From positions 310,001 through 374,000 of the forward strand of contig JAJFIQ010000019.1 in NCBI GenBank assembly GCA_021774785.1: 64,000 nt of DNA, written 5' to 3'. Below are positions 13,497 to 46,402 of this stretch, piece after piece. The DNA is from Emcibacter sp. GTDB lineage: Bacteria; Pseudomonadota; Alphaproteobacteria; Sphingomonadales; Emcibacteraceae. The notes beneath the pieces were generated by a model. The model worked only from the letters and a program-made list of their open reading frames with translations, did no database searches and was not told where the DNA came from. Made by a program: the position numbers and the translations under genes. Each line of letters opens with the position of its first letter. The stretch's first letter is position 1.

Positions 13497-13891
13497 TGGA
13501 AAACCAGAAACCGGAAAGTCAACGTATTGATATCTGGCTCTGGCATGCCCGGTTTTTTAAAACACGGTCTTTATCAACAAAAACATGTCGGGCCGGAAAA
13601 GTCCGCATTAATGGCCAGAAATTTACCAAGGCCAAGACCTCTGTTGTGATTGGTGATGTGTTGACTTTTCCACAAGCCAACGTCATACGAATAGCCAAGG
13701 TTTTGGGCTTTAATATCCGGCGTGGTCCTGCACCGGAAGCGCAATTACTTTATCTTGACATGACCCCGCCCCGGGAAGAAACCATCAAAATTGAAAAATC
13801 CAAAGTTGCCCGCCGAGATAAGGGGGCAGGCCGCCCTACCAAGTCTGAACGTCGGGCCACTGATAAATTGAAAAATATATTCCCTGATTGA
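13496..13891 (+). CDS. S4-domain RNA-binding protein (Hsp15-like)
   Basis: A 131-residue protein with an S4 RNA-binding fold at residues 8-70 (RIDIWLWHARFFKTRSLS, GKVRINGQK, SVVIGDVLTF), the arrangement of heat-shock protein Hsp15, which binds stalled 50S subunits. The C-terminus is basic (RRDKGAGRPTKSERR). It is translationally coupled to the helicase (TAATG), pointing to a shared RNA-related role. In many alphaproteobacteria this pair lies next to ferredoxin and carD; here four other genes intervene. Confidence 0.9.
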   Translation: MENQKPESQRIDIWLWHARFFKTRSLSTKTCRAGKVRINGQKFTKAKTSVVIGDVLTFPQANVIRIAKVLGFNIRRGPAPEAQLLYLDMTPPREETIKIEKSKVARRDKGAGRPTKSERRATDKLKNIFPD

Positions 13892-13942
13892 TCTGTTCAT
13901 CCTTTTTATGTCATGTTGATTTAAATATTTTCAGGAGGATAC

Positions 13943-15205
13943 ATGGGTAGGATCGGATTATTTTGGCTGGCAGTCATGGGAATGACTTTATGCTCTGGGT
14001 TAGCAAATGCGGAGTCAAAAAAACAGGAAGTGGTGAAAAATATCACCCTTCTCCATGCAGGGACATTACTGGCTGTGCCGGGTAAGAGTCCTCTTACAGA
14101 GCAAACAATCGTTATCGAAGGTACGCGGATCAAGGAAATCCACCCCGGTTATGTCTCGGGTGAAGACCTTATGATTCCCTATGCAAAAACGATAGACCTG
14201 AAGGATAAGTTTGTCATGCCGGGGCTTATGGATATGCATGTCCATCTTACCCTTATGAAGGGTAAGGATTTAAAAGCCGATGAAATGGCATTGGAGGGGG
14301 TTATTAATGCAAAAAAGACCTTGATGGCGGGCTTTACCACTGTGCGGGATATTGGAGCCATGGGCAATACTATTTTTAAGCTTCGGAATAAGATCAGGGA
14401 TGGGCATATTGAAGGCCCTCGAATTTTTGCCTCTGGTCAAATTGTCGCTGTCGGATCTATAGATGGTGGTCTGGAATGTAATGGCCCGGAAAGCTGTCGC
14501 CGTACAACCCGTGAATTGATTAGCAACGGTGCCGACTGGATTAAAATATATTCTTCTTGCAGCGGCAGTAAATTCTGTTCTCATGAAGATGGCGCACCCA
14601 TGTTTTTTGATGATGAGATTAAGGCCGTGGTAGCAGTAGCCAATAAATATGGTATTAAGGTCGCGGCTCATTCGCACCCGCGCGACAGTGCGCTGTTTGC
14701 CTTGAAATACGGTGTATCCTCTATCGAGCATGGCTCTTTCATGAATGATAAAGCCTTAAAGGCCATGAAAAAGCAGGGGGTTTACTATGTTCCTACAGTA
14801 TCGGTGCATGATATGTTGGAAGACCTTAAGCGGGACGGTAAGGTCAAGGGGCGTGTGCTGGCCCATAATGATACTTTTCTGAAAATTCACCCTGAAACCA
14901 TAAAAAATGCCTATAAAAGGGGGGTAAAGATGGCCACGGGAAGTGATGCGGGTGTTGTCCCGCATGGTAAAAATTATCGCGAGTTGGAGCGATTTGTTGA
15001 TCTGGGTATTACACCTATGGATGCTCTGAAGATGGCAACTGTGAACGGGGCGGATCTTCTGGACAAAATCCAGGAACTTGGCACGGTAAAGGCCGGAAAA
15101 TATGCCGATATCATTGCTTTATCCGCAGACCCCTTGAAGGATATTCACAATATAGAAAAGGTTATTTTTGTGATGAAGGGCGGCAAAATATATAAAAAGG
15201 AATAA
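13943..15205 (+). CDS. Exported amidohydrolase family protein
   Basis: A 420-residue metal-dependent hydrolase of the amidohydrolase superfamily (imidazolonepropionase/prolidase-like subgroup). A signal peptide covers about residues 1-23 (cut near LANA). Metal-site motifs are complete: MDMHVHL (about residues 93-99), a central lysine segment (GADWIKIYSS), VAAHSHPRD, SIEHGSFM and ATGSDAG. The substrate is not predictable; related exported enzymes act on dipeptides or cyclic amides. AGGAGG precedes the ATG. It is the first of four genes between the S4 gene and the ferredoxin gene. Confidence 0.85.
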   Translation: MGRIGLFWLAVMGMTLCSGLANAESKKQEVVKNITLLHAGTLLAVPGKSPLTEQTIVIEGTRIKEIHPGYVSGEDLMIPYAKTIDLKDKFVMPGLMDMHVHLTLMKGKDLKADEMALEGVINAKKTLMAGFTTVRDIGAMGNTIFKLRNKIRDGHIEGPRIFASGQIVAVGSIDGGLECNGPESCRRTTRELISNGADWIKIYSSCSGSKFCSHEDGAPMFFDDEIKAVVAVANKYGIKVAAHSHPRDSALFALKYGVSSIEHGSFMNDKALKAMKKQGVYYVPTVSVHDMLEDLKRDGKVKGRVLAHNDTFLKIHPETIKNAYKRGVKMATGSDAGVVPHGKNYRELERFVDLGITPMDALKMATVNGADLLDKIQELGTVKAGKYADIIALSADPLKDIHNIEKVIFVMKGGKIYKKE

Positions 15206-32908: not shown

Positions 32909-33853
32909 ATGGCACAACAACTGGTGACAATTTTTGGGGGTGCGGGTTTTGTTGGCACTACTTTGGTGGAACATCTGGCCAAGACGGGGGTGCGCATCCG
33001 TGTTGCTGTCCGGCGTCCTAATTCATCGATGCATGTTAAACCTTTGGGAGACGTGGGGCAGGTGCAGGTCGTACAGGCCAACTTGCGGGATGAGGATTCG
33101 GTACGGGCCGCCATTAGAGGGTCCGATGCGGTGATTAATCTTGTGGGTATTTTGTATGAAACGGGGGCCCAGAAATTTAATGCCGTCCATGGGAAAGGCG
33201 CTGAAACTGTGGCCCGTGTAAGTGCCGAGCTTGGGGTCACATCGCTGGTTCATATGTCTGCGATCGGTGCCGATGAAGAATCACCCGCCCTTTATGCCCA
33301 GAGCAAGGCACTTGGTGAAAAGCTTGTGAAGGCCGTTTTCCCCGATGCTACCATCATTCGCCCTAGTGTTGTTTTCGGGACCGGTGACGGGTTGTTTAAC
33401 CGCTTTGCACAGGCCGCGAGCCTGCCTTTATTACCGGTATTTTCCGGTGACACCAAATTCCAGCCTGTCTATGTGGGTGACGTGGTTAAAGTCATAATCA
33501 GGGCCCTGAGTGATAGCAAAATGCAGGGCGAGACATATGAACTGGGCGGCGCGGATGTCTATAGCCTGCGGGAGATAATGCAGCTTGCGGCGAAAGAAGC
33601 CATGCAGAATGTGTGGTTTGTGGATGTCCCGGATTTTATTGCGCCGTTTAAGGTGTTTTTTCTGGGGCTTTTGCCGAATCCGACGATCACGTTGGATCAG
33701 CTCAGAATGTTGGGCAAGGATAATGTAGTTGGAGCGGATGCTCAGGGCTTATCTGAACTAGGCATTACCCCAACCCTAGTGGAGGCTGTTCTGCCAACAT
33801 ATCTGCACCAATACCGCCCCAAAGGCCAATTTGCCGAGGATGTAAAAATTTAG
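32909..33853 (+). CDS. Complex I NDUFA9-like NAD(P)-binding protein
   Basis: A 314-residue atypical short-chain dehydrogenase/epimerase of the NDUFA9 group. The nucleotide-binding motif GGAGFVG is at residues 10-16, with [16 protein letters not shown] and YAQSKALGE downstream. The last is where catalytic Tyr-x-x-x-Lys would be; here YxxSK is shifted, as in the accessory complex I subunit. In alphaproteobacteria these proteins are thought to assist or stabilise complex I, or act in quinone-related steps. The stop overlaps the convergent galE stop by four bases. Confidence 0.88.
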
Positions 33854-34863
33854 TAGCCGTTAGGGTTCTTTGATTGCCAGTTCCAGGCGTGACGAACCAT
33901 ATCTTCAAGGCTGTGACTTGCTGTCCAGTTTAGCTCCTGCTTGGCTAAGGCGGGGTCAGCGTAACAGGTGGCGATATCGCCGTCGCGACGTGGGGCCATT
34001 CGGGTCGGAATTTTAATGCCGTTGGCCTGTTCAAATGCCTTAACCATTTCCAGAACGCTATAGCCCGTCCCTGTGCCCAGGTTATAGGTGACAAGCCCGG
34101 AATTTTCCATCAGTTTATCAAGCGCCTTAAGGTGACCAATGGCCAGATCGACCACATGAATATAATCGCGCACACCCGTACCATCCGGAGTGGGATAATC
34201 ATCACCGAAAACTGAAAGCTCTTTGAGCTTACCCACGGCCACTTGAGTGATATAGGGCATCAGGTTATTGGGGATATCTGTCGGGTCTTCCCCGATCAGG
34301 CCACTTTCATGGGCACCAACCGGATTAAAATAACGTAATCTAACGATATTCCACCTTGGGTCTGCCGTTGTGAGGTCAGCCAGAATATTTTCAATCATCA
34401 ATTTTGAGGTGCCATAAGGATTAGTCGTGCCGCCGGTGGGGAAATCTTCCCGAATGGGTACGCTTGCGGGATCGCCGTAAACCGTAGCGGATGAACTAAA
34501 CACAAGGTTGCGTACATCATATTTTTCCATGACCTGACACAGAGTTAGTGTGCCGACCACATTATTCTGGTAATAGGCGAGGGGCTTGGACACGCTTTCA
34601 GCCACAGCCTTCAGGCCAGCAAAATGAATAACTGCGTCAAATTTCTCGGCGGTAAAGATATCTTCCAATCCCGCCTGATTCAATATATCAAGTTTATGAA
34701 AAGAAAGACTGTTTTTGCCGGTGATATTTTTCACTCGCTGCAAGGATTTTTCGCAGGAATTTGACAGATTATCAATCACCGTTACATCGTGCCGGGCTTG
34801 CAGAAGTTCAAGCACTGTATGACTGCCAATATATCCTGAACCGCCTGTGACCAGTATTTTCAT
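33850..34863 (-). CDS. galE: UDP-glucose 4-epimerase
   Basis: A 337-residue extended SDR that interconverts UDP-glucose and UDP-galactose for cell-surface sugars. GGSGYIGSH (7-15) binds NAD; the catalytic pair is in SSSATVYG and [11 protein letters not shown] (Tyr-x-x-x-Lys); [12 protein letters not shown] is the family substrate loop. Length equals that of E. coli GalE (338). AAGGG stands six bases before the ATG. It lies downstream of, and on the same strand as, the Had/Dch operon, 70 bases after its last gene, so read-through transcription is possible, but a functional link is doubtful. Confidence 0.95.
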
Positions 34864-34933: not shown

Positions 34934-35752
34934 TTAGGCCGTTTGACCATGAACAGCCGCCCCGATGGCTCCACAATATTGCGCATTAGGGGCGAGCATG
35001 GTTTTTATGTTTGGATTGGCCTCACTGAGTTTTTCAGTGAACATTTCAACCAGTTTTGGGTGAAAACGCAGAACCCCGCCGGAAAAAGCGACGATGTCCG
35101 TAGTGATGCTGGTCATTTCCATCACTCTCTTTACCACCGAGCTATAAAGGGCATAAATGATATTTTCAACCCGCTCGCCATTCATGAGTACTTTGATGAC
35201 TTCCTGCCCCGAAAAGACCGTGCAGTAACTATTCAGGGATAGTTCCTTGTCGTTGCCACTTGCTAGGCTGGTCATATCTCCAAGGGGTACTTCAAGGCGA
35301 TGGCCCAGTTCCTCTATATAGGCTCCGGTCCCGGCGGCACATTTACGGTTGATTATGAATTGGTCGACTTTCTCGTGATCAATTGAGATGATCTTGGAAT
35401 CCTGACCACCAATATCGATGATGCTATAGGCTTTGTTTAATTCAAGCTGATTCTGGACACCGATGAAATGGGCCTTGATTTCAGTCAGGGCATCATGGGC
35501 GAAGCTGATATATTTACGGCCATATCCGGTGGCGACAATCTTGTGACCGGACTTGATTTCATCACTATCATCTGTGACAAAGGGCGAAAGATCGCCTTCC
35601 TCGCCGGACAGGGCGTGCCGCACATGATCCTGTAAGGGAAACAGGGTCTTTTGTTTGCGTTTCAGCAGAATAGTACCTTGTGTGTCAAGGGCAACAACCT
35701 TGATCTCTGAGCTTCCACAATCAACACCCCAATAAATTTCATCCGTTGTCAT
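34934..35752 (-). CDS. BadF/BcrD/HgdC-type ATPase, activator of the adjacent Fe-S reductase
   Basis: A 272-residue ASKHA-fold ATPase of the 2-hydroxyacyl-CoA dehydratase activase/benzoyl-CoA reductase ATPase family. GVDCGSSEIKVV begins the fold, IIDIGGQDSK is the second phosphate loop, and the two cysteines that bridge a [4Fe-4S] cluster across the homodimer are C138 (RKCAAGTGAYIEE) and C177 (NSYCTVFSGQEVI). It couples ATP hydrolysis to electron injection into a partner, here the preceding gene. ATG 35752 overlaps the partner's TGA by one base; an in-frame TTG at 35755 is less likely. One activase only, whereas benzoyl-CoA reductase has two ATPase subunits. Confidence 0.92.
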   Translation of the reverse strand: MTTDEIYWGVDCGSSEIKVVALDTQGTILLKRKQKTLFPLQDHVRHALSGEEGDLSPFVTDDSDEIKSGHKIVATGYGRKYISFAHDALTEIKAHFIGVQNQLELNKAYSIIDIGGQDSKIISIDHEKVDQFIINRKCAAGTGAYIEELGHRLEVPLGDMTSLASGNDKELSLNSYCTVFSGQEVIKVLMNGERVENIIYALYSSVVKRVMEMTSITTDIVAFSGGVLRFHPKLVEMFTEKLSEANPNIKTMLAPNAQYCGAIGAAVHGQTA

Positions 35753-36930
35753 CAAATCGTCTCCAGAAAGGCTTCAATCAATGTCGTCGCCTGTTCATCG
35801 GAATAGCACCGCAGGTCGCACAGATCGCCGTCGATAGTGATGGTCGGGATGCCTTTGCCTTTGAGTTTGCGCGGCAGATTGTAATAGGCATTGCTGTTAT
35901 TGGGGCAGGTGCGGGCGGCCAGAAAAATCACACCATCAATTTTGAAATCCTTGACCATGCTTTCAATATAATCTTCTTTATACTGGTCATTGCGGTTGAT
36001 GAAAATCTTGATATAGGCCTCGGCCATACTGGTAAGCGGATTTTCCGGGTTAAAGTCGGAAAAAACCCAGCTATTGCAATAGGTTGAAGCGACAACACAG
36101 GCTTTATTTTCTTCGAAAGTATTGGAGAGTGCGCGTAACCGTCCCCATACGGGCATGCCGTCCCAATAGATACGCTTGCTTTCCTGTTTTACAGCGGCAT
36201 GACAATCGGTGACTTTTTGTTTTAGTTTCGCCAGCAGGTCTTTGTAATAATCCACAGCAATTTGGGTTCCGCGCAATACCACAATTGGCCCCATATAAAT
36301 CGTGCCATCAAAGAAGGTCAGCGGACTTGGCGTCGTCTGGGCCATGTTAAGCACATCGGACCACAGGTTTGTAGCCTCCAAAGACAAGGCAACGGTTTCT
36401 TTCAATCGTTCAGGGTCCATAGATGCACCAATTATGGGTTCCAGAAAGGCAATCAAATCTTTAAATTGCTGTGCCACATCATCAATATATTCCTGTCTGA
36501 TCCCCGGTACATTGGTCGGCGGGTGGATGCCAAATATGGGGCAATCAAATTCCTTGGCATAATATTCAAACCAATGCATAACGTCCTTGCATTGGTTGGT
36601 ATTATAAACCAACACATCGGGACGGGGAACTTCCTCAATACCAAAAGCCTTGGTCAGTGGCGTGATGCCCTTTATATAGGCACCCACATCGGAGGTGAGG
36701 TAGCTGCATATCTCCGGCGAATAACCGCTGGCATTGGCCACGGGGATAGTATCCATACAGACCCGTGTCGCACCCAGCATAGCACCGTGATTTTCCGGAA
36801 AAAATACTTCAAACCCCATGGCGCGCAATATTTCCGCCGGACCGACAGATGTACACCATGCCACCTTACGCGCGGGGTTTTTATGCGCCGCGTCAAGGTC
36901 CAGAAAATAGTCTTTCATCACATTAGCCAT
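35752..36930 (-). CDS. 2-hydroxyacyl-CoA dehydratase / benzoyl-CoA reductase (BcrB-like) Fe-S subunit
   Basis: A 392-residue HGD-D family protein. By eye it tracks benzoyl-CoA reductase subunit B: SPEICSYLTSDVG (C75), PDVLVYNTNQCKDVMHWFE (C114), PSPLTFFDGTIYMGPIVVLRGT (201-222) and a late AARTCPNN (C342). Further cysteines are C26, C58, C130, C285, C371 and C375. These proteins bind oxygen-sensitive clusters and reduce or dehydrate acyl-CoAs using ATP-energised electrons. Classic enzymes need a second, related subunit (BcrC or HgdA); none is encoded here, so a homodimer as in double-cubane cluster proteins (E. coli YjiM type) is the main alternative. AAGGACC precedes the ATG. Confidence 0.88.
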   Translation of the reverse strand: MANVMKDYFLDLDAAHKNPARKVAWCTSVGPAEILRAMGFEVFFPENHGAMLGATRVCMDTIPVANASGYSPEICSYLTSDVGAYIKGITPLTKAFGIEEVPRPDVLVYNTNQCKDVMHWFEYYAKEFDCPIFGIHPPTNVPGIRQEYIDDVAQQFKDLIAFLEPIIGASMDPERLKETVALSLEATNLWSDVLNMAQTTPSPLTFFDGTIYMGPIVVLRGTQIAVDYYKDLLAKLKQKVTDCHAAVKQESKRIYWDGMPVWGRLRALSNTFEENKACVVASTYCNSWVFSDFNPENPLTSMAEAYIKIFINRNDQYKEDYIESMVKDFKIDGVIFLAARTCPNNSNAYYNLPRKLKGKGIPTITIDGDLCDLRCYSDEQATTLIEAFLETI

Positions 36931-36944
36931 AGTCGGTCCTTATA

Positions 36945-37694
36945 TTATAGGGATAATAGTCCACAACTTTTGCCACCGTCCACATGAATTACCTGTCCGT
37001 TTATGAATTGTGCATCACCGGACGAGAGGAAACATACGGCAGCAGCAATATCATTCACCGATCCCATCTTGCCCGTAGGCTGCATTCTGAGCAGTCTTGC
37101 CAAGGCTTCTTCCGGCATACTTTTGGTCATGGGCGTGCCGATAAGTCCGGGGGCCACCGCATTGACATTAATCTGGAATCTGGCAAGTTCCAAGGCCAAC
37201 GTACGGGTCAGGCTGACCAGACCGCCTTTACTAGCGGAATAATTCGCCTGTCCAATATTGCCGAGCCATGAACGGGAGACGATATTGACAATCTTACCGC
37301 TATTCTGAGCCTTCATGATGTCAAAGACCGCCTGACAGCAGAGGAACGGTCCTTTCAAGTTCACATCTATGACCTTTTCCCAGTCATCTTCGCTCAGTTT
37401 GGCAAGAAAACCGTCACGGATGATACCCGCATTATTGACCAGAATATCAACGGTGCCAAAAGTGTCCTTGGCCTGTGCGATCATGGCAAATACCTGATCT
37501 TTATTAGAAACATCCGCCGCAACGCATAGGGCTTCCGTATCAAGTTTCCCTGAGATATCTTTCAGGCAGTCTTCATTTATATCTACAAGAACCAGCTTTG
37601 CCCCTTCGCTTGAAAGGCGTTTTGCGATTGCGGCCCCGATGCCCTGTCCGGCTCCGGTTACGACGGCTATTTTATCCTGAAGTCTATTTAACAT
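36945..37694 (-). CDS. Short-chain dehydrogenase/reductase (FabG-like)
   Basis: A 249-residue classical SDR. Cofactor motif TGAGQGIG (14-21), NNAG (about 87-90), catalytic Ser in VNIVSRS, then Tyr and Lys in NYSASKGG, with the C-terminal INGQVIHVDGG. It would oxidise or reduce a 3-hydroxyacyl- or cyclic hydroxyacyl-CoA. The start overlaps the thiolase stop by seven bases, and the BcrB-like gene follows after 14 bases, so it is a firm member of the operon. The substrate is inferred only from context. Confidence 0.88.
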   Translation of the reverse strand: MLNRLQDKIAVVTGAGQGIGAAIAKRLSSEGAKLVLVDINEDCLKDISGKLDTEALCVAADVSNKDQVFAMIAQAKDTFGTVDILVNNAGIIRDGFLAKLSEDDWEKVIDVNLKGPFLCCQAVFDIMKAQNSGKIVNIVSRSWLGNIGQANYSASKGGLVSLTRTLALELARFQINVNAVAPGLIGTPMTKSMPEEALARLLRMQPTGKMGSVNDIAAAVCFLSSGDAQFINGQVIHVDGGKSCGLLSL

Positions 37695-38953
37695 CTCTCA
37701 ACCACCATTGCTATTCCCTGACCGCCGCCGATACAAGCAGATGCCACACCAAATTGTTTATCATCCCGATGTAGCGTACGCAGGGCCGTATGGGCAAGAC
37801 GAAGACCCGTAACGCCTAGGGGGTGCCCCAAGGCTACCGCGCCGCCGTTGACATTTAAAGCATCTTCATCAATGCCAAGTTCACGGGCGCAAGATAATAC
37901 CTGAGCCGAAAAGGCTTCATTGATTTCATAACGGTCAATATCAGAAACTTCCATTTCAAGGGCAGTCAGAAGGCTACGAATAGCTGGCACGGGACCAATA
38001 CCCATAAGATGCGCTTCCACACCTGCAGAGGAGAAGCCACGAATTTTACCCAAGGGTTTTAAGCCGTTGGCGCGAACATAATCACCGGAAGCGATGAGCA
38101 GGCTAGCCGCACCATCAACGATACCTGAAGCATTTCCGGCTGTTGTCGGCCCCTCCTTGCTGAATACGGGTCTCAATTTCGCCAGATTTTCCATTGTGGT
38201 CTGGCGTGGATGCTCATCATAGGCAAGACCATCCCGATTGGCACATTTGAATTTGCGCGGGATAAGACCACCATGGGTGAATTCGCCTCTTGCAGGAACC
38301 GCGCTGATTTCACCGTCAAAAAATCCGGCTTCCTTCGCTCTGGCATAGCGGTTTTGACTTCGGAAGGCATAAGCGTCAACCTCTTCACGGCTGAGACCAT
38401 ATTTTGCCGCCAGATTATCGGCCGTTTTGCCCATGGGAACGGCGGCTGAATCATTCAGTGCTTCCCATAACAGGTCAACATAGTCCGGACGTCCAAGGGG
38501 AAATCCTTGTCGTGCGGAATAGGACACCAGCGGATAGCGGCTCATGGTATCTGTCCCGCAGCCCAAAACCACATTAGCTTTACCGAGCGCGATCTGTTCT
38601 GCAGCCTGTCCCAATACTTCGACACCTGATCCGCAGATGCGCTGCACAAGAACCGCCGGGGCGGTCAGGGGCGTGTCCGCATAAAGTGCGATGTGGCGTG
38701 GCAGGAAGAAACAGTCTTCGGCGGCTTGTCCGATATTGGCGGCAATCACCTGATCCACTTCACCGCCACCAATGCCACTGGCGTCCAATGCCGCTTTTGC
38801 GCTATGAATACCAAGATCGGTTGGTGAAACCGTGGAAAGGCTTCCGGTGAATTTGCCGAACGGTGTCCGTTTGCCGTCGATGATATAAATATCATCGAAA
38901 AGCACACCGATGCCGCCTTCGCGGGAATTATATCCAGTTGCTGATACACTCAT
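37688..38953 (-). CDS. Thiolase (acetyl-CoA acyltransferase)
   Basis: A 421-residue degradative-type thiolase. The nucleophile is C107 (QRICGSGVE), with NEAFSAQ (about 345-351), H377 in GGAVALGHPLG and the proton-donor C407 in SACIGGGQG; all are intact. It performs thiolytic cleavage of a 3-oxoacyl-CoA. A 15-20-residue N-terminal extension precedes the usual start (DDIYIIDGKRTPFGKF); AGGAGC before ATG 38953 supports it, though a GTG inside the extension cannot be excluded. It lies between the dehydrogenase/hydratase fusion and the SDR in the operon. Confidence 0.92.
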   Translation of the reverse strand: MSVSATGYNSREGGIGVLFDDIYIIDGKRTPFGKFTGSLSTVSPTDLGIHSAKAALDASGIGGGEVDQVIAANIGQAAEDCFFLPRHIALYADTPLTAPAVLVQRICGSGVEVLGQAAEQIALGKANVVLGCGTDTMSRYPLVSYSARQGFPLGRPDYVDLLWEALNDSAAVPMGKTADNLAAKYGLSREEVDAYAFRSQNRYARAKEAGFFDGEISAVPARGEFTHGGLIPRKFKCANRDGLAYDEHPRQTTMENLAKLRPVFSKEGPTTAGNASGIVDGAASLLIASGDYVRANGLKPLGKIRGFSSAGVEAHLMGIGPVPAIRSLLTALEMEVSDIDRYEINEAFSAQVLSCARELGIDEDALNVNGGAVALGHPLGVTGLRLAHTALRTLHRDDKQFGVASACIGGGQGIAMVVERC

Positions 38954-38956
38954 TAC

Positions 38957-40945
38957 TTATGCTCCTTTAAATTCTGGCCTGAAGCCTTTAACGACACTTG
39001 ATAACCCCTGAAGAGCATCCTCAGTGGCAAATATTTCTTTTAATCCGGCAAGCTCCAGCTTAAGCCCATCTTCAAGTGACAGGTTAGCGCCGTCGTCCAT
39101 CAATTTCATGGCTGTTGACAGTGCTATTGGGGCTTTTTTGGAAAGGATCTTAGCTTGTGGGTGGTTGGCGTTGAATGTGCCATCAAAATCAATGAACAAT
39201 GCTTCTGTTTCACTTTGATCCGTCTTGCCCGCCTGCTTTGCGCCGAGGGTTATATCTGACAGATCATACAGGTCATATAGGGGATCAATGATTTGATCCA
39301 CCAGACCATATTCATAGGCTTTGCCTGCATTAAAGAACTGACCCGTTGCGACCATGAATTTGGCAAGACTCTTGCCGATCAAACGGCTTGTGCGTTGGGT
39401 GCCGCCAAGGCCGGGGTAAATCCCAATTCCGGTCTCAGGGAAGGCGATGACGGTATTCTTTGTGCCAACACGATAATCACAGGCCAGCGCCAGTTCCATG
39501 CCACCACCCAACGTCAGCCCATCAACAAAGGCGCAAGTTGTTTTGGCGGAATTCTGAATTCTTGCCAATACTTCCTGGCCAAATTCAGTGAATTTCTGAA
39601 TACGGTCAAGGTCATTGGCGGCGATACCATCAAGGAAAAACTTGATGTCTGCCCCTGCAACAAAGGCCTTGCCCTGTCCCAGAATATAAATGGTTTTCAG
39701 GTCTGGGTTTTGGTCAAGCTCGCTAAAGCATTTATCCAACTGATTAATCACAAGCTCGCCAAGGGCATTCATGCGGTCGGGCAGGTTAAATATTACAAAC
39801 CCAGTATCCCCCTTGCGTCTGGCCTGTACCCATTCCAGTTCCACCGGATCGTTAGATCCAAAGGCAAATTCCGGCATGGGCATATCCCAACTTGAGAATA
39901 GATCCTTGACCATTGCACCAACTTTTTCAACGCCGATCTTGTTCATTAGCTCAAAGGGGCCAACGGGCCAGCGCAGGCCCGCGCGGGTGCCCAGATCATT
40001 TGATGTGGCATCTACGACGCCTTCACCGACCATCTGCGCCGCAATGCCGAGCGACGATGCTATGAGACGCGACGTCACGACGCCTTCATCATTGGTACCA
40101 CCATTCAGGATTGTCGTATCTACTTCATCCCACATATTACCTGTGGCGACCTGATCGCAAAGTATTTTCGCAGGCTTGTAAAAATCACCGAGCTTACTGG
40201 CTAAACCGTCTGCGGCATGCATGGCTATGGGAACACCTGTGGCATTCATCAGGGCAAATGGTCCCATGCCAATGCCAAAGACCTGACGGGCCACCTCATC
40301 GATAAATTTAATACTGCCGAAGCCTTCTTCCAAGAGCCGTGCGCCTTCATTAAGCCACGGCACAAAAAACCGGTTGATGGCAAAACCGGGGGCATCCTTG
40401 ACGATGATCGGTGTCTTACCGTGATAGGCATAGAAATTAACCAGATCATCGATCAATCTCGCGTCGGAAAGCGGGCCGGGGATAACCTCGACTAGTTTGT
40501 TTTTGGCCGCATGATAAAAATAATGCACGCCGACAATGCGTTCAGGATGCTTTGCACCCTCAGCAATATCACCGATTAGGAAGGAGGATGTGTTGGAGGC
40601 AATAATACAGTCCGTACGCAGAACCGTTTCCAAATTTTTGAATAAATCCTGTTTAACTTTCAGGTCTTCAAAAATAGCCTCAACCACAAGGTCTGTATCT
40701 TTCAGGGCAGATTGCTCCGTGGCACAGATCAGGTTTGCCATGATGCTTTCAAACTGTTCTTCACTGATGATGCGCCGTTTCATAGCCTCACCGAGTGAAT
40801 CTGCAATGGTCTGACGTCCGCGCGCTGTACTTTCCGCTGATTGATCCAGCAGGGTAACAGGCAGTCCCTTCATCAGGAAATGCTGGGCAATGGCGGCGCC
40901 CATGGTTCCGGCGCCTACAACGCCAATATTTTCAATTTTTCTCAT
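38957..40945 (-). CDS. 3-hydroxyacyl-CoA dehydrogenase / enoyl-CoA hydratase fusion
   Basis: A 662-residue bifunctional protein with the dehydrogenase at the N-terminus (GVVGAGTMGAAIAQ at 8-21, ASNTSSFLIGDIA, VGVHYFYHA) and a crotonase domain from about residue 385 on. The crotonase part keeps both catalytic glutamates (GGGMELAL and FPETGIGIYPGLGGTQR). The domain order is the reverse of E. coli FadB and matches the stand-alone type found in archaea and some anaerobes. It would hydrate an enoyl-CoA and oxidise the resulting 3-hydroxyacyl-CoA. Its ATG overlaps the upstream gene's stop (ATGA), and thiolase follows directly. Confidence 0.93.
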   Translation of the reverse strand: MRKIENIGVVGAGTMGAAIAQHFLMKGLPVTLLDQSAESTARGRQTIADSLGEAMKRRIISEEQFESIMANLICATEQSALKDTDLVVEAIFEDLKVKQDLFKNLETVLRTDCIIASNTSSFLIGDIAEGAKHPERIVGVHYFYHAAKNKLVEVIPGPLSDARLIDDLVNFYAYHGKTPIIVKDAPGFAINRFFVPWLNEGARLLEEGFGSIKFIDEVARQVFGIGMGPFALMNATGVPIAMHAADGLASKLGDFYKPAKILCDQVATGNMWDEVDTTILNGGTNDEGVVTSRLIASSLGIAAQMVGEGVVDATSNDLGTRAGLRWPVGPFELMNKIGVEKVGAMVKDLFSSWDMPMPEFAFGSNDPVELEWVQARRKGDTGFVIFNLPDRMNALGELVINQLDKCFSELDQNPDLKTIYILGQGKAFVAGADIKFFLDGIAANDLDRIQKFTEFGQEVLARIQNSAKTTCAFVDGLTLGGGMELALACDYRVGTKNTVIAFPETGIGIYPGLGGTQRTSRLIGKSLAKFMVATGQFFNAGKAYEYGLVDQIIDPLYDLYDLSDITLGAKQAGKTDQSETEALFIDFDGTFNANHPQAKILSKKAPIALSTAMKLMDDGANLSLEDGLKLELAGLKEIFATEDALQGLSSVVKGFRPEFKGA

Positions 40946-41868
40946 TTTGAACTCTCTGTGGTTTTTATCAGATTGTACATTATTGGGATCATGGTGACCT
41001 CGACCCCATATTCTTCAGCGTAGCGGGTTAACCTGCCGCACATATATTCGTTTTCGGTAATTTTGCTGTTTTCTATATCAATCAGTATAGATGGTTTATG
41101 ATTGCCGCCCTTCTCAAGATAACCTAGCGCATGATTAAGGAAATCATCTTCGATAGGAATATTCATGGCCTGTGCAATACGGATACCTTCTTCAATGATC
41201 TGGGCGACCATTGTTCTCATATAATCGCGGCCAAAGACGTTGCTCATGGTATGGCGGGTGATAGCGCAAAGGCTGCCAAGGGATGAGTTAAGCAGGGCCT
41301 TTTTAAAGACTTCTGTGCGGTAGTCTTTACGCACTTCTAGACAGGTTCCCGCTTCTGTAAAATCAGCAGCTATTTGATGGATGATTTTTTCATCAATATC
41401 CGGCATCAGGGACAGATAATGGCACATGGAAAAACTGACCCGCACCATATTTTCCGATGACTTGCCACAGCCCATATTCACAGACATGCGAAGGGTATGA
41501 CCGGGACCGAATATGTCGCTGATCTGATGCTCGGTATCCAATCCATTCTGACAGGACAGGAATATTAAATTCTCGTTGTAATTCAGGTCTTTGATTATTT
41601 TTAATATACTGGGGGATTGAGAGCTTTTGGTGCAGATTAGGATCACTTCTACGCCCGTATCAAGAAATTCCTGCATATCATTATAAAGGTCGGTGACTTC
41701 AGCCGAAGCGTTGAGTTCTCCTTTTATTTCAAGAGGATGACCCCGCATGGCTATGCGAACGGTAGGGTCCCGATAGAATACTGAAACCCGATGGCCGCTT
41801 TGTGCCAGATGGGCAGCAAAAACCCTGCCCACTGGTCCAAATCCTATGACGCCGTAATGGGTTTTCAT
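40942..41868 (-). CDS. Ketopantoate reductase-like oxidoreductase
   Basis: A 308-residue protein of the ApbA/PanE fold. The NADP-binding loop is GFGPVG (9-14). The N-terminal Rossmann domain is followed by a helical C-terminal domain (KKALLNSSLGSLCAI is the conserved substrate region with the lysine). True PanE makes pantoate; the placement inside an acyl-CoA operon, with ATGA overlap to the fusion gene, suggests a different 2-oxo or 3-oxo acid substrate. ATG 41868 is chosen because GGAG is seven bases upstream, inside the end of the synthetase gene; the longer start at 41886 overlaps that gene. Confidence 0.8.
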   Translation of the reverse strand: MKTHYGVIGFGPVGRVFAAHLAQSGHRVSVFYRDPTVRIAMRGHPLEIKGELNASAEVTDLYNDMQEFLDTGVEVILICTKSSQSPSILKIIKDLNYNENLIFLSCQNGLDTEHQISDIFGPGHTLRMSVNMGCGKSSENMVRVSFSMCHYLSLMPDIDEKIIHQIAADFTEAGTCLEVRKDYRTEVFKKALLNSSLGSLCAITRHTMSNVFGRDYMRTMVAQIIEEGIRIAQAMNIPIEDDFLNHALGYLEKGGNHKPSILIDIENSKITENEYMCGRLTRYAEEYGVEVTMIPIMYNLIKTTESSK

Positions 41869-41872
41869 GGGG

Positions 41873-43588
41873 CTACTCCAGATCAATCACAAAAGCATCA
41901 TGGGGAAGGTCATCATAATTTTCTTCCTGCATGGCTTTGATATAGGGCTGGTATTTCTCTTCAATCCGTCGTGGGATTAACTTGAAAGACGGTGTTAGTT
42001 CATTTTCTTCCAGTGACAGTTCGCGCTGGATAACTAAAGCCTTTCCAATGCGCTCAAATCCGGTTAACTGATAAGTATTGATCTCATCAACACAGCCGGA
42101 AAGGCAGCTTGACAGGCTAGCGCAACTGCCAGGAAACTCACAGCCCGGATCATCCTGCTGATTGCGCACACTTGCCGCCATTAATTCTGAGTTTGGGAAG
42201 ACCAGCATGAAGGGATTTTTCTGACCGGAACCGAAAACATAAGCATATTTGACAAATTTGCATCTTCGGCAGACATTTTCTTCAATATTGGACGGGAAAA
42301 GTTTTTCGCCGTTGCTCAGTTTGAACATTCTTTCCTTGCGGGAAATTATTTTCACGCCGTCCTGACTTATTTCACCGATGTCACCGGTATGGAACCAGCC
42401 GCCTTCGGAAAAGGCTTTTGTGGTTGCAGGTTTGTTTTTAAAATAACCACTCATGACATTTTCACCACGCACCAGCAGTTCGTTATCTTCCCCAAGGCGC
42501 ATTTCAACACCCGGTATGGGAAAACCAACGATACCAGGAATACGGTCCATACTGAATCTGGTCAGCGTACAGCAGGGGGAGGTTTCGGTCAGTCCCCATG
42601 ATTCAACAACAGGGATATTATGCTGGCGGAAAATATCTGAGGTGCTGAGCGGCAGGGGGGCCGCAGCCGTAAAGACAAATTTCAATTCATCATGGAAGAA
42701 AGACTTTTCAGCCTTTTCCGATGTGAGTACCTTACCGACGATGGCCTGATAGATCACCGGCACGCTGAAATACATATGGGGTCTGATTTCAGCAAAATTT
42801 TCCAGAAGCCGGTCAATATCCTTACCAAAACTGTCATCAATGGCGAGGCAACCGCCGGAGTGAAGAGCAAGAAAACGTTCAAACAGGCCACCAAAACTAT
42901 GGTGCCACGGCAAGTAGCATAAAAAACGCATGCCTGGTTCTGGCTTCCACATTATTTGCAGGGCTTTCTGCTGGCTCATGATATTGGAATGATGAAGCTG
43001 GACACCTTTTGGAAAACCACTTGTACCTGAAGTATACATTATCATGGCGAGTGCAGAGGAGGGGACGGAGCGGAAATGCTGTTCAATTTCAGCTTTAGTA
43101 TCTGCCGTAGTTTTTTGGTTCAATATGTCATCAAATTCTGGTGTCGATAGAAAAACCAGCCTTTTCGGCAGGCAATCTTCATTCAGTGATAATATCTTTT
43201 CCGGATTGTCGCTGATGAGCATACTGATATCTGAAAAAGTGATCAGTTTTTCCATTAACGCGTTGGGATATTTGGCAAATATAGGCACGCAAACTAATCC
43301 ACAACTCATGACAGCCATTTCACAGACAAGCCGTTGGTAGTCGTTACCCGCGATAAATGAAACCCGGTTCAGCTTTTCATTCTTTGGGTCAAGGCCAGAG
43401 TTTAGCAAATAGATGGACAGGGAAATAATATCGTCGGTTAACTGTTCCCACGACCAATATTCATATTCATCATCTGTACGTTGGGCAAAGGCGGGAGCCA
43501 TTGCATAAGCGTCACGATTGTTAAGAAACATGGTACCAACATTGGGCGTATAGTCACCCAGTTCTATGTCAGACTTTAAAATGTTCAT
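41873..43588 (-). CDS. AMP-forming acyl-CoA synthetase with a cysteine-rich C-terminal insert
   Basis: A 571-residue adenylate-forming ligase of the long-chain acyl-CoA synthetase type. The P-loop is MYTSGTSGFPKG (about residues 194-205), with ESWGLTETSP and WFHTGDIGEI further on. It would activate the operon's acid substrate with ATP and CoA. In the C-terminal lid region, where related enzymes have charged helices, there is a Cys-rich stretch C-x5-C-x5-C-x3-C (codons within 42092-42142), plus CRRC just before. This pattern is unusual and could bind metal. ATG 43588 overlaps the TetR stop (ATGA); the in-frame start at 43621 would lie deeper inside tetR. Confidence 0.9.
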   Translation of the reverse strand: MNILKSDIELGDYTPNVGTMFLNNRDAYAMAPAFAQRTDDEYEYWSWEQLTDDIISLSIYLLNSGLDPKNEKLNRVSFIAGNDYQRLVCEMAVMSCGLVCVPIFAKYPNALMEKLITFSDISMLISDNPEKILSLNEDCLPKRLVFLSTPEFDDILNQKTTADTKAEIEQHFRSVPSSALAMIMYTSGTSGFPKGVQLHHSNIMSQQKALQIMWKPEPGMRFLCYLPWHHSFGGLFERFLALHSGGCLAIDDSFGKDIDRLLENFAEIRPHMYFSVPVIYQAIVGKVLTSEKAEKSFFHDELKFVFTAAAPLPLSTSDIFRQHNIPVVESWGLTETSPCCTLTRFSMDRIPGIVGFPIPGVEMRLGEDNELLVRGENVMSGYFKNKPATTKAFSEGGWFHTGDIGEISQDGVKIISRKERMFKLSNGEKLFPSNIEENVCRRCKFVKYAYVFGSGQKNPFMLVFPNSELMAASVRNQQDDPGCEFPGSCASLSSCLSGCVDEINTYQLTGFERIGKALVIQRELSLEENELTPSFKLIPRRIEEKYQPYIKAMQEENYDDLPHDAFVIDLE

Positions 43589-44211
43589 AACGATTTCTTT
43601 CTGTTTTCTTCCGCGCAACAACCCTTGGTGAAGGTGTGGAAAATATCGTCCGCAACCTCCTGTGCCGTGCCGTGGTCTGTTGCAGAATACCAGCCGAAAA
43701 TCCAGTTCATCATACCATATAATAGATATGTTTTGCGACTGATGACATCATCAGGATAATCTACGTCTGTCTGGCTACGCATATATTCCCCAACAATATT
43801 CTGGGCAAGCTGCGTGTATTCCTGTTTAAGTTTCCACAGTATCTGACTTCTTTGCTCATTCATTTCCATGGTGCCAGAGGTCATAATCCGCATTTCACTT
43901 AAGTGATCTATGAAATAGGTCACATGATTGCTGATCAATTTTGAAAGCCGTTGTTCCGGTCTGAGGTCATCTATCAACAACCTATTTGACATATCAAGAA
44001 GTGACGTGAAGCCGCGCTGATTAATCAGGAACAGAAGTTCTTCCTTGTTACTGAAATAATGATATAGGCCGGAGAGGCTGCGTCCTGTGACCTGTGCCAG
44101 GTCCCGCATGCTGGTGCCGTGGTAACCAAGATGCGCCATTAACTGGGCAGATTTATCCAAAATCTCGTCCAGACCGCTAAGGCGTTTATTGATGACGGCT
44201 TGATCGCTCAT
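43585..44211 (-). CDS. TetR family regulator, probable repressor of the operon
   Basis: A 208-residue TetR protein with an N-terminal HTH (about residues 14-60: LDEILDKSAQLMAHLGYHGT, SMRDLAQVTGRSLSGLYHYF) and a helical ligand domain. It resembles regulators of acyl-CoA catabolism, which release DNA on binding a CoA thioester. It begins immediately after the stop of the Dch-like gene (TAAATG) and overlaps the synthetase start, so it is made from the transcript it presumably controls. A perfect palindrome upstream of the first gene (46098-46111) is the likely target. Confidence 0.9.
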   Translation of the reverse strand: MSDQAVINKRLSGLDEILDKSAQLMAHLGYHGTSMRDLAQVTGRSLSGLYHYFSNKEELLFLINQRGFTSLLDMSNRLLIDDLRPEQRLSKLISNHVTYFIDHLSEMRIMTSGTMEMNEQRSQILWKLKQEYTQLAQNIVGEYMRSQTDVDYPDDVISRKTYLLYGMMNWIFGWYSATDHGTAQEVADDIFHTFTKGCCAEENRKKSL

Positions 44212-44988
44212 TTATGTGTTGTCCCATTCCGGGGCGCGTTTGGCCAGGAAGGAGCCAATGCCCTCATTGGCATCATGGCTTTTCATCAATTCATCAAGGT
44301 ACATCCGTTCCAGATCGCCGATATGTTGACGATAAATTGAATTAATGCTCAACCGTACGGCACGATTGGCAAAGCGCAGGCTGCTGGCACTGCGGGGCAG
44401 AATGTTTTTCTCAATATAGCTATCGATTAACTGATCAAGGTCTGCTGCTGGGGCTACTTGATTGATGACGCCACAGTTTTGCAATTCTTGCGCACTTAAT
44501 TTAGCACCCGTCAGCAACATATGTGACGCTGTTACGCCATTCGCGAGGAAGGGGAGCAGGGCTGCGGCAACGGGGGGAAAGACCCCAAGCTGAATTTCTG
44601 GTACGGCATATTTTGATTTTTCTTCGGCAAAAATTAACCCGCAAACAAGAGCCAGTTCAAATCCGCCTCCAAGACAAAAACCAGACACATTGGCTAATGT
44701 CGGCACGGGATGAGCTAAAATTTCGCCACACATAAGGTGAAATCCGGGTAGCATATTATCCACCTGATCAACGGTATGTTCTTCTACACTGGCACCAAAA
44801 CAGAAATGGTCACCGGCCCCCTTAAAGATGAGAAGTTTTCTGTCCTTATTGTTAAGGTCATCTTTCAGGAAGGCTCTTATTTCTGCCATCATTGCCGCAG
44901 TCAATATATTTGCAGGAGCATCATTGAGGGTAATTTCAGCAATCTGCCCTTCATATTTTTCTTTAATTTCAATTGTTTGGTAGGTCAT
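44212..44988 (-). CDS. Cyclohexa-1,5-dienecarbonyl-CoA hydratase-like (Dch) crotonase
   Basis: A 258-residue crotonase-superfamily enzyme. It shares with Dch of anaerobic benzoyl-CoA degradation the segments PANILTAAMMAEIR (25-38), FGASVEEH (64-71), GGGFELA with E111, VPEIQLGVFPP with E131, and ASSLRFANRAVR. Dch adds water to the cyclic diene made by benzoyl-CoA reductase. Both catalytic glutamates remain. ATG 44988 follows AGGAG and the Had stop by seven bases; a start at 45024 would overlap Had. Subfamily assignment is by motif recall; an ordinary enoyl-CoA hydratase is the alternative. Confidence 0.75.
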   Translation of the reverse strand: MTYQTIEIKEKYEGQIAEITLNDAPANILTAAMMAEIRAFLKDDLNNKDRKLLIFKGAGDHFCFGASVEEHTVDQVDNMLPGFHLMCGEILAHPVPTLANVSGFCLGGGFELALVCGLIFAEEKSKYAVPEIQLGVFPPVAAALLPFLANGVTASHMLLTGAKLSAQELQNCGVINQVAPAADLDQLIDSYIEKNILPRSASSLRFANRAVRLSINSIYRQHIGDLERMYLDELMKSHDANEGIGSFLAKRAPEWDNT

Positions 44989-44995
44989 TTTAATG

Positions 44996-46066
44996 TTACT
45001 CCTGATCTGGAACCATAATGGCACGGCGGCTTAATTTATGGGCATTGGCCAGCTCAATGACCTCATTAAGTTCTGACAAGGGATACTCCACGATATTGTC
45101 CTTCAGGTTTATGCTGCCATCCAATACGCCTTTGACCACGGGCGGGTAATATTTTGGGCTGCAGCCCCAATTGCCAAACAGGTCCGCATCAAAGGCCATT
45201 ATATTGCTTAGGCGAAGTTCAAGTTTGCCCATGGTGAAACCGATTACGCCAAGTGTTGCGGCAAAGGTCAGCAGGGAAAAGGCAACATTTTGACCAGATG
45301 TTGATCCACTGGTTTCAAATATTTTCCATTGGTATTTTGGCAGGTTATTTTCCTTGACTAAGGAACGAATGGCTTTTTTTATCCCGCGCCCATCCATGCC
45401 GGCAGTGCAGATACCAAAATCTGCGCCCTGTTTTTTAACGGCCTCTACCTTTCCCTCATCAATATCAAGGGCAATGACAGTGGCCCCTGCGTTATGAGCA
45501 TGTTGTGCCATATAAAGGCCAACGCCGCCTGTACCAATGACAATCGCCAAATCACCTTCTTTTAGGCCACTACGGATCATGGATTGATAGGGCGTGGTGA
45601 TGGCATCGGCTATCACGGACAATTCCTGTAATTCAAATTTGCCAAGATCATCATCCAGCTCGCAGAGGAAGCGGGCAGGGACAACAATATGACTGGCAAA
45701 GCCGCCTTGAAAATCATTTCCTGGCATGAGTTGATGCTGGCAGATGTTGTCACGTCCGGCTTTGCAAAGCTCACATTCCCCGCATGGCAAAACGGCCGGA
45801 ATGATCACCTGTTTTCCAAGAAGATTTTCATAATGGCTACCAGTGGCTTCTACGGTTCCGCTAATTTCATGACCCAAAATGAGGGGCAGGTCATGTTTGG
45901 TACCAACGGAACCAGAAATATAACCTAGGTCTGTATGGCAGACACCACAGCCGGCCACTTTAACAACCACATCATCATCAGAAATGTCATCTATAGTAAA
46001 GCTTCTCTTTTCCAGCGGTTGTCCCGTGCTAACAAAGAACATTCCCCATGCTTCAATTGATGACAT
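44996..46066 (-). CDS. 6-hydroxycyclohex-1-ene-1-carbonyl-CoA dehydrogenase-like (Had) alcohol dehydrogenase
   Basis: A 356-residue zinc-dependent medium-chain dehydrogenase. Catalytic zinc motif GCGVCHTDLG (C40, H44 region) and GHEISG (65-70); structural zinc C95, C98, C101, C109 in CGECELCKAGRDNIC; NAD loop GTGGVG (178-183). Several stretches match Had of benzoyl-CoA degradation more closely than ordinary alcohol dehydrogenases: KQVIIPAVLPCGECELC, MPGNDFQGGFASHIVVPAR, ADAITTPYQ, RLSNIMAFDADLFGNWGC and HKLSRRAI. Had oxidises the cyclic hydroxyacyl-CoA formed by Dch. First gene of the operon; AGGAG before the ATG, palindromic operator 32 bases upstream. Confidence 0.82.
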   Translation of the reverse strand: MSSIEAWGMFFVSTGQPLEKRSFTIDDISDDDVVVKVAGCGVCHTDLGYISGSVGTKHDLPLILGHEISGTVEATGSHYENLLGKQVIIPAVLPCGECELCKAGRDNICQHQLMPGNDFQGGFASHIVVPARFLCELDDDLGKFELQELSVIADAITTPYQSMIRSGLKEGDLAIVIGTGGVGLYMAQHAHNAGATVIALDIDEGKVEAVKKQGADFGICTAGMDGRGIKKAIRSLVKENNLPKYQWKIFETSGSTSGQNVAFSLLTFAATLGVIGFTMGKLELRLSNIMAFDADLFGNWGCSPKYYPPVVKGVLDGSINLKDNIVEYPLSELNEVIELANAHKLSRRAIMVPDQE

Positions 46067-46402
46067 TTCACTCTCCTGATTAATGTTATAAATTATCCGA
46101 ACGATCGTTCGTTAATTTAAGTAAAATTAAGGGTATTTGCAATGTCTATTTTGTTGTGATGGCTTTGACGGCGGCGCATTTTTATAATTTAAGAGAGAAA
46201 TTTAAGAGGTAAAATAACATCATAACTACAAATTTTGTGAATTTTGGTAACGCTTGCAACAAGAATTCCAAAAATTTTGGGACCGTTCGCATGAAGGTAT
46301 TAAAGAGGTTTAGTAATGTATACAGACAAATTATTTGATGGGCTGTGGTATATTATTCACAAATTCAGGTAATAACACGCCCTGAATAGAATATTGATTC
46401 TA
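46067..46402. other. Intergenic region between the Had operon and the GGDEF gene
   Basis: No gene is seen in these 336 bases. The operon-proximal end has the ribosome site and palindrome. The rest is AT-rich with scattered A/T runs and no strong hairpin except a 7-bp dyad (ATAGAAT/ATTCTAT, 46386-46403) at the end of the GGDEF gene, which lacks a T-run. Confidence 0.6.
46098..46111. promoter_or_regulatory. Perfect 14-bp palindrome, candidate TetR operator of the Had/Dch operon
   Basis: CGAACGATCGTTCG is a complete dyad with no central gap, 31 bases upstream of the Had ATG. On the minus strand a GATAAT hexamer follows it directly, so a bound repressor would block the promoter. Size and symmetry suit TetR-family sites, and the operon encodes a TetR. 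Confidence 0.75.

Follow-up and report, generated by a model that had tools for sequence, protein, structure and literature searches.

A conserved ten-gene operon of Emcibacter centred on a single-gene HGD-D iron–sulfur protein: a candidate dehydrative feeder route into anaerobic benzoyl-CoA degradation

Introduction

Dehydration of aryllactyl-CoA is known from fermenting Clostridia (PMC5897657, PMC11574389), and the described 2-hydroxyacyl-CoA dehydratases are α/β heterodimers (PMC11574389) in which a conserved glutamate participates (PMC5897657). Here we analyse a ten-gene operon in 64,000 nt of DNA from Emcibacter sp. (contig JAJFIQ010000019.1, positions 310,001-374,000, assembly GCA_021774785.1; the whole stretch is called the window), which encodes a single iron–sulfur (Fe-S) protein with an HGD-D domain and its activase. 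The operon belongs to anaerobic benzoyl-CoA metabolism, and we propose, with a probability of about 0.57, that it supplies anaerobic benzoyl-CoA degradation through a dehydrative feeder route and also encodes part of the ring pathway.

Compared to the dehydratase HadBC with its activator HadI and the phenyllactyl-CoA dehydratase FldABC of fermenting Clostridia, the operon has the same type of catalytic subunit, an ATP-driven activase and a proposed upstream 2-hydroxyacid dehydrogenase. The three cluster cysteines and the Glu and Ser positions of HadB also recur (the residue comparison covers HadB and not the Fld sequences). It differs in possessing one HGD-D gene rather than an α/β pair, two invariant cysteines (C285 and C26) and a ligase in place of a CoA-transferase; moreover, the proposed product would be oxidised to benzoyl-CoA rather than reduced. 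The class I benzoyl-CoA reductases (BCRs), BcrCBAD, BzdNOPQ and MbdONPQ, share the superfamily, the fold and the activase family, and their genes are linked to the operon in relatives. However, the HGD-D protein lies outside the BcrB/MbdO clade, misses the BcrB cut-off, and has neither a β subunit nor a BcrA/BcrD pair. The double-cubane cluster protein (DCCP) and its reductase also combine a single HGD-D gene with a single activase, whereas in the tree DCCP falls in the other half.

In Aromatoleum, phenylalanine is degraded via phenylacetyl-CoA (PMC9765128). The routes described there likewise end in benzoyl-CoA, that of phenylalanine passing through phenylglyoxylate as well; further parallels are β-oxidation and a presumed dehydroxylation for the propanoate and a TetR-like regulator, PprR. 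By contrast, the accessible parts of their description contain no 2-hydroxyacyl-CoA dehydratase. Desulfococcus multivorans is described as converting phenyllactate to phenylpyruvate (PMC5109826). For the benzene degrader BzS1, a 2026 paper puts forward a hypothetical phenyllactyl-CoA dehydratase step on the way from phenylpyruvate via cinnamoyl-CoA to benzoyl-CoA (PMC13416013). In the accessible text, this is a hypothesis for benzene activation that names candidate genes, leaves the dehydratase unassigned and lists an FldB-like candidate (30% identity) as undetected. A literature search for an aryllactyl-CoA dehydratase route to benzoyl-CoA, or for Emcibacter together with benzoyl-CoA, found such a route proposed in that paper only, and no published gene cluster comparable to this one; most subscription journals were not covered.

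Conservation of the operon and its link to benzoyl-CoA reductase

The operon consists of ten minus-strand open reading frames (ORFs; positions 34934-46066 of the window, Table 1) in the order Had, Dch-like, TetR, acyl-CoA synthetase (ACS), PanE-like, dehydrogenase/hydratase fusion, thiolase, short-chain dehydrogenase/reductase (SDR), HGD-D protein and activase. Neighbouring genes overlap or are separated by no more than ~15 bp, assuming the likely internal ATG starts for Dch, ACS and PanE. An earlier note on this stretch had described ten one-strand genes with overlaps or short gaps, and the ORF coordinates agree with it. The operon is real and conserved as a unit: its gene order recurs in other genomes and is therefore not a product of chance. 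Family scans also agree with its gene names, except that the Dch-like protein stays below its cut-off and the Fe-S protein is nearer to the HadB model than to BcrB.

The proposed connection to benzoyl-CoA degradation held up as well, and the refuting condition named in the note does not apply: the best-scoring families for Had and the Dch-like protein are TIGR03201 (Had) and TIGR03189 (Dch), respectively. Had is the only protein of the genome above the TIGR03201 cut-off, and the Dch-like protein is the best TIGR03189 candidate (~194 bits, runner-up 97.8), though no protein exceeds that cut-off. A second contig of the source genome (3.5 Mb in 28 contigs) carries oah, bcrC, bcrB, bcrA and bcrD, each above its curated cut-off, in addition to a divergent korAB-type 2-oxoacid:acceptor oxidoreductase. 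The benzoyl-CoA pathway is probably divided over two loci in this organism; the operon alone is not the complete route claimed before, as the genes for ring reduction and ring opening lie on that other contig.

HGD-D orthologues with 55-89% identity were found at 25 of 30 loci in 24 genomes; this set leaves out L046-L050 (at most 29% identity). L030, which lies on the same contig as L029, was also dropped, and a 94-residue fragment in genome G014 was not counted. The hosts are Emcibacter-like bacteria, which hold the nearest orthologues, gammaproteobacteria (Lysobacterales, Rhodanobacteraceae, Thermomonas and others), myxococcal and deltaproteobacterial metagenome-assembled genomes (MAGs) and one Bacteroidetes MAG. 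This is a conserved gene set that spans several phyla and includes a new dehydratase-like clade.

Three whole Emcibacter-like loci (L081, L082 and L084) have the gene order of the window, with HcrC, HcrA and HcrB (subunits of a 4-hydroxybenzoyl-CoA reductase-like enzyme, Hcr) between SDR and the HGD-D gene; L083 lacks TetR and thiolase. In two close relatives, L027 and L028, one gene separates the operon from korBA on the opposite strand, beyond which lie oah and bcr genes. Some gammaproteobacteria unite the operon genes with bcr, oah and kor genes in one cluster: G152 (L094 and L035) holds Had, Oah, Dch, TetR, BcrCBAD, ACS, PanE, fusion, thiolase, SDR, HcrCAB, HGD-D, activase and KorAB in a single stretch, and G156 (L092 and L093) has the same set with HcrB below the match threshold. 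The Dch-like gene of L092 stands between oah and the TetR-bcr genes, and relatives of TetR (47-50% identity) adjoin bcr genes in L092, L094 and L096.

Gene neighbours were tallied over 25 genomes with an orthologue, excluding the source genome; many loci end at contig ends. The activase was found in 24 genomes, ACS and HcrB in 16 each, PanE in 16 (two at merely 28-31% identity), HcrA and HcrC in 15 each, the fusion in 14, SDR in 12, thiolase and Dch in 10 each, Had and TetR in seven each, and an aminotransferase in two. The genome lacking a separate activase has a PanE-activase fusion (33% identity) instead. Such a fusion is the 630-residue ORF of the Bacteroidetes MAG (L043:11712-13604), with ApbA domains within residues 22-323 and BcrAD_BadFG at 365-608; here an ADP-forming-type CoA ligase immediately precedes the HGD-D gene. 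ACS directly precedes it in L029, L031, L032 and L044. PanE, HGD-D, activase and aminotransferase genes are adjacent in this order in L042, and L040 has HGD-D, activase and aminotransferase.

BcrB exceeds its cut-off in 22 of the 25 genomes. The three exceptions are a 74% complete genome (G002), a fragment (G010) and G159, in which all matches are weak. Among 398 genomes sampled across the phylum, source genome included, BcrB above the cut-off occurs in three, the source genome among them, and an HGD-D orthologue in the source genome only; the 25 genomes were picked by the gene and are related, and the two fractions form a contrast, not a statistical test. BCR is present without an HGD-D orthologue in G348 and G386, provided that the BcrB and orthologue counts come from one and the same phylum sample, as we presume. 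In G050 and G067, too, bcrC, bcrB and bcrA occur with no close orthologue. This pattern suits a feeder to BCR better than a component of it.

The loci of the latter two, L062 (G067) and L063 (G050), belong to other genomes of the same taxonomic order, and their bcr genes lie together with a TetR gene (48% identity to that of the window). The L043 stretch also contains bcrCBAD, Had, Oah, Dch-like and thiolase genes along with its HGD-D orthologue. In L045, subunits of NADH-dependent phenylglyoxylate dehydrogenase, above cut-off, are encoded at 12814-14899, shortly after the HGD-D and activase genes.

Structure and cysteines of the HGD-D protein

The HGD-D protein scores 220.7 bits to the model of the 2-hydroxyisocaproyl-CoA dehydratase α subunit (HadB, NF052455; cut-off 750, an equivalog model for one specific enzyme), compared to 147.0 to BcrB (TIGR02260, cut-off 486.55) and 82.7 to the DCCP model NF040772 (cut-off 350). 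Of the three HGD-D proteins encoded in the source genome, namely BcrC, BcrB and the window protein, the true BcrB scores 824.3 bits to TIGR02260; exactly three HGD-D matches are also present in 13 of 16 other genomes. The tree includes, besides the reference proteins, the window protein and 20 of the 25 orthologue loci (without L024, L025, L026, L028 and L030). These 21 sequences form one clade (100/100) inside the catalytic-subunit half (100/100) and outside the BcrB/MbdO clade. The model scores together with the tree rule out that the protein is BcrB, as its earlier description as a BcrB-like subunit implied; structure comparison alone would be insufficient for this.

The structure predicted by AlphaFold2 (mean pLDDT 85.6) matches the dehydratase α subunit (3o3m, Z-score 44.3; 3o3o, 42.3), BzdO (42.0) and MbdO (39.1) more closely than DCCP (32.5) and the dehydratase β subunit (30.9). 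As modelled, the protein shows itself to be a catalytic-type subunit.

All 21 sequences keep the five cysteines C26, C75, C114, C285 and C342. C75, C114 and C342 align with the ligands of the catalytic [4Fe-4S] cluster in HadB and BzdO, which are C95, C128 and C380 in the accessible description of BzdO (PMC11971306). The counterparts of C285 are BzdN C263 and DCCP C309; at this double-cubane position HadB, BcrB, MbdO, HadC, BcrC and MbdN have no cysteine, and BzdO is unreadable. C26 lies one column away from BzdN C36, and its own column contains a cysteine in MbdO, too. Of the six double-cubane ligand columns of BzdN, four hold a cysteine in the HGD-D protein and a fifth is missed by C26 by one column, whereas BzdN C293 has no counterpart. 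In addition, Glu46 corresponds to HadB Glu55, and Ser28 to HadB Ser37, the latter unmatched in BcrB or MbdO.

With the 2-hydroxyacyl-CoA dehydratase (HAD) family the protein shares the HGD-D domain with three cluster cysteines and a homologous single-gene activase, both cysteine motifs of which align with solved activases; it has no β-type gene of its own for an α/β heterodimer and no HadB equivalog score. It may work in a HAD-like manner, yet it is not a standard member of that family.

Proposed pathway and alternative explanations

None of the ten genes was recognised as an acyl-CoA dehydrogenase in the family scans. As the operon has a hydratase, dehydrogenases and a thiolase without such an enzyme, the enoyl-CoA must arise in another way. 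The proposed pathway builds on computed gene content, conserved order, BCR co-occurrence, catalytic-subunit type and ligand residues; from these we infer all substrates, the direction of PanE, the subunit make-up and, by homology, the radical mechanism. The 2-oxo acid taken up by PanE would most likely be 4-hydroxyphenylpyruvate or phenylpyruvate; its reduction would give the (R)-2-hydroxy acid, which ACS would convert to its CoA ester. Driven by ATP, the activase would give an electron to the HGD-D protein, and water removal through a ketyl radical would yield coumaroyl- or cinnamoyl-CoA. From there, β-oxidation by the fusion protein, SDR and thiolase would lead to (4-hydroxy)benzoyl-CoA. A 4-hydroxybenzoyl-CoA reductase, whose gene lies within the operon in relatives and elsewhere in the source genome, would remove the ring hydroxyl, before the ring is reduced by BcrCBAD from the other contig and finally opened through the action of the Dch-like protein, Had and Oah. 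The scheme of the earlier note, in which an acid is CoA-activated and acted on by an ATP-driven Fe-S enzyme before it is hydrated, oxidised and thiolysed, is supported.

Given (4-hydroxy)benzoyl-CoA as the end point, the simplest substrate would be (4-hydroxy)phenyllactate from tyrosine or phenylalanine, and the PanE, aminotransferase and Hcr-like neighbours in relatives favour an aryl 2-hydroxy acid. Judging from these genes, the substrate is probably an aryl 2-hydroxy acid, probably derived from one of the two amino acids. The nearest solved structure to the window PanE is 3wfi (54.7 bits, with 3hn2 close at 51.5), which we take to be D-mandelate dehydrogenase of Enterococcus faecium. This dehydrogenase is described as a D-2-hydroxyacid dehydrogenase of the ketopantoate-reductase family (PMC12350541). 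ACS has no match among solved structures at E ≤ 1e-25, hence no substrate hint. The alicyclic or unsaturated cyclic acid suggested earlier is not supported, as the family scans showed no gene for it. The sole specific match is that of SDR to the model for cis-4-hydroxycyclohexanecarboxylate dehydrogenase (203.7 bits, cut-off 350), one of many SDR models matched; otherwise no cyclohexanecarboxylate-specific family is among the listed matches of the operon proteins, and no dedicated search was made elsewhere in the genome.

A further, tentative reading, which we hold somewhat below even odds, is that the HGD-D protein represents a new type of one-gene radical 2-hydroxyacyl-CoA dehydratase, serving a dehydrative tyrosine/phenylalanine route through benzoyl-CoA in respiring bacteria. 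It would be either a homodimer or a catalytic subunit that borrows BcrC. As a homodimer, it would combine catalysis with electron storage in one polypeptide with an unusual five-cysteine cluster site, and would stand between double-cubane proteins on one side and the heterodimeric dehydratases and BCRs on the other.

Several findings weigh against the feeder route. The HGD-D protein is below the cut-off of every NCBIfam model matched, and the HGD-D profile search of the source genome found no β-type partner gene besides BcrC. The placement of HadB in the tree is unsettled, with long branches and a tool warning, as is that of BzdO; the structure match does not separate dehydratase from BCR, 3o3o α being tied with BzdO; and the Glu46 position is common to BcrB, MbdO and BzdO. 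As for the neighbours, PanE is unseen in the loci of nine of the 25 genomes, some of which end at contig ends, and the window species has no Hcr genes in its operon. The aminotransferase is adjacent in only two of the 25, and the nearest solved relatives of the one in L042 are tied between aromatic (196.9 bits) and aspartate (196.2 bits) enzymes.

This last tie, and the fact that PanE, ACS, the dehydratase and an aminotransferase would suit any 2-oxo acid, agree with dehydration of a non-aromatic (R)-2-hydroxyacyl-CoA derived, for instance, from leucine or a different amino acid, in which case the benzoyl-CoA link would reflect nothing but a shared need for low-potential electrons. We consider this unlikely in view of BcrB in 22 of the 25 orthologue genomes, the Hcr-like genes that adjoin the HGD-D gene in many of them, and a fusion and single thiolase that lead naturally to an aroyl-CoA. 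Alternatively, the HGD-D protein and activase could form a further BCR-like ATP-dependent reductase for another aryl-CoA, possibly sharing BcrC, which would account for the missing β subunit, the tie with BzdO and the close association with BCR and the ferredoxin-reducing Kor genes. This, too, appears improbable: the HadB score exceeds that of BcrB, the protein is placed outside the BcrB/MbdO clade, a single gene encodes the activase where BCR has a BcrA/BcrD pair, and PanE, though fused to the activase in L043, would have no role. PanE would equally be idle if ACS directly activated plant-type enoic acids such as coumarate and cinnamate, with the HGD-D pair in a side role. Such a route would also need no acyl-CoA dehydrogenase, and the Hcr-like genes fit coumarate, but ACS stays beside HGD-D and activase in L029, L031, L032 and L044, loci without the β-oxidation genes of the operon, and we regard it as very unlikely.

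If the dehydrative feeder route is true, the radical chemistry of amino-acid-fermenting Clostridia is also used by anaerobic aromatic-ring degraders, and aromatic amino acids reach benzoyl-CoA by a route that bypasses phenylacetate. It would also provide a natural single-gene dehydratase for tracing descent among double-cubane proteins, dehydratases and BCRs, and a genomic marker of this activity for sediments and groundwater.

Hcr-like genes

All Hcr-like subunits of L027 are below the cut-offs of the 4-hydroxybenzoyl-CoA reductase models (α, 828 against 994.55; β, 198.6 against 404.55; γ, 149.3 against 257.8), and the γ subunit scores higher to other XDH-family models. Nevertheless, HcrB of L027 keeps all four insert cysteines of the solved Thauera 4-hydroxybenzoyl-CoA reductase (1rm6_B), which is its best match. 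HcrA is above the cut-off in none of 19 other genomes, and 17 of the 19 have a match at E ≤ 1e-150, a count that includes other molybdenum enzymes of the family. The source genome possesses HcrA above the cut-off (1169.2 bits) outside the operon. The Hcr-like genes were either lost in the window species or gained by its relatives.

Where the examined relatives hold these genes, the window has a gap of 14 bp between SDR and HGD-D (36930-36945). The HcrA of the source genome lies in L104 (G000:C24:140001-160000), near a protein with helix-turn-helix and shikimate-kinase domains and a further protein with a weak PaaA_PaaC match (25.6 bits, below cut-off). We take these surroundings to resemble an aerobic benzoyl-CoA (box) pathway with a BzdR/BoxR-type regulator.

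Regulation

The TetR protein probably represses the operon through the palindrome at 46097-46112, a candidate operator recognised from its sequence. Its core CGAACGNNCGTTCG (46098-46111) is the sole exact copy in the genome, and the end of this core is the end coordinate of the span 34934-46111 given in the earlier note; the genes themselves end at 46066. The exact palindrome occurs in seven of 104 loci, two of which are the window's own place; in the others (L082, L084, L092, L094 and L096) it precedes the first gene of the operon, and L081 has it with one mismatch. Most of the remaining loci do not extend to this region. All six palindrome loci have a TetR gene, and L083, which has none, carries a decayed version.

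A regulon beyond the operon, with both loci of the source genome co-regulated, is unsupported because there is no second exact palindrome, the upstream region of Had and the korA-oah gap share no 18-base stretch with at least 15 matches, and sites with one mismatch allowed number five in the genome compared to 10 for the backward control.

Features and minor observations

Table 1. Features of the operon region, with positions in the window
Feature	Position	Strand	Remarks
TetR-type palindrome ACGAACGATCGTTCGG	46097..46112	none	at least 31 bp upstream of Had start; predicted, probable operator
Had, 6-hydroxycyclohex-1-ene-1-carbonyl-CoA dehydrogenase	44996..46066	-	TIGR03201, 462.1 bits, above cut-off of 338.65
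Dch-like enoyl-CoA hydratase	44212..45024	-	likely start ATG near 44988; TIGR03189, 194.4 bits, below cut-off of 292.5
TetR-family regulator	43585..44211	-	Pfam TetR_N and TetR_C_24
Acyl-CoA synthetase (ACS)	41873..43621	-	Pfam AMP-binding; likely start ATG near 43588
PanE-type 2-hydroxyacid dehydrogenase	40942..41886	-	PanE/ApbA; TIGR00745, 148.4 bits, above cut-off of 141.35; likely ATG near 41868
3-hydroxyacyl-CoA dehydrogenase/enoyl-CoA hydratase fusion	38957..40945	-	Pfam 3HCDH_N, 3HCDH and ECH; dehydrogenase part first
Thiolase	37688..38953	-	TIGR01930, 391.1 bits, above cut-off
SDR dehydrogenase, FabG-like	36945..37694	-	family scans
HGD-D Fe-S protein, proposed 2-hydroxyacyl-CoA dehydratase	35752..36930	-	PF06050, 238.2 bits
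Activase, BcrAD_BadFG/CoA_E_activ ATPase	34934..35755	-	TIGR00241, 162.6 bits, above cut-off

In G147, ACS, HGD-D and activase genes occur twice on one contig in opposite orientation (L029 and L030; G147:C13, 21624-22715 and 67274-68365) with the same scores and neighbours, which is either a true duplication or an assembly palindrome. The ORF after the activase (33850-34863 of the window) resembles UDP-glucose 4-epimerase by eye, and a protein with the same start follows the activase in L027; this gene is probably unrelated to the operon.

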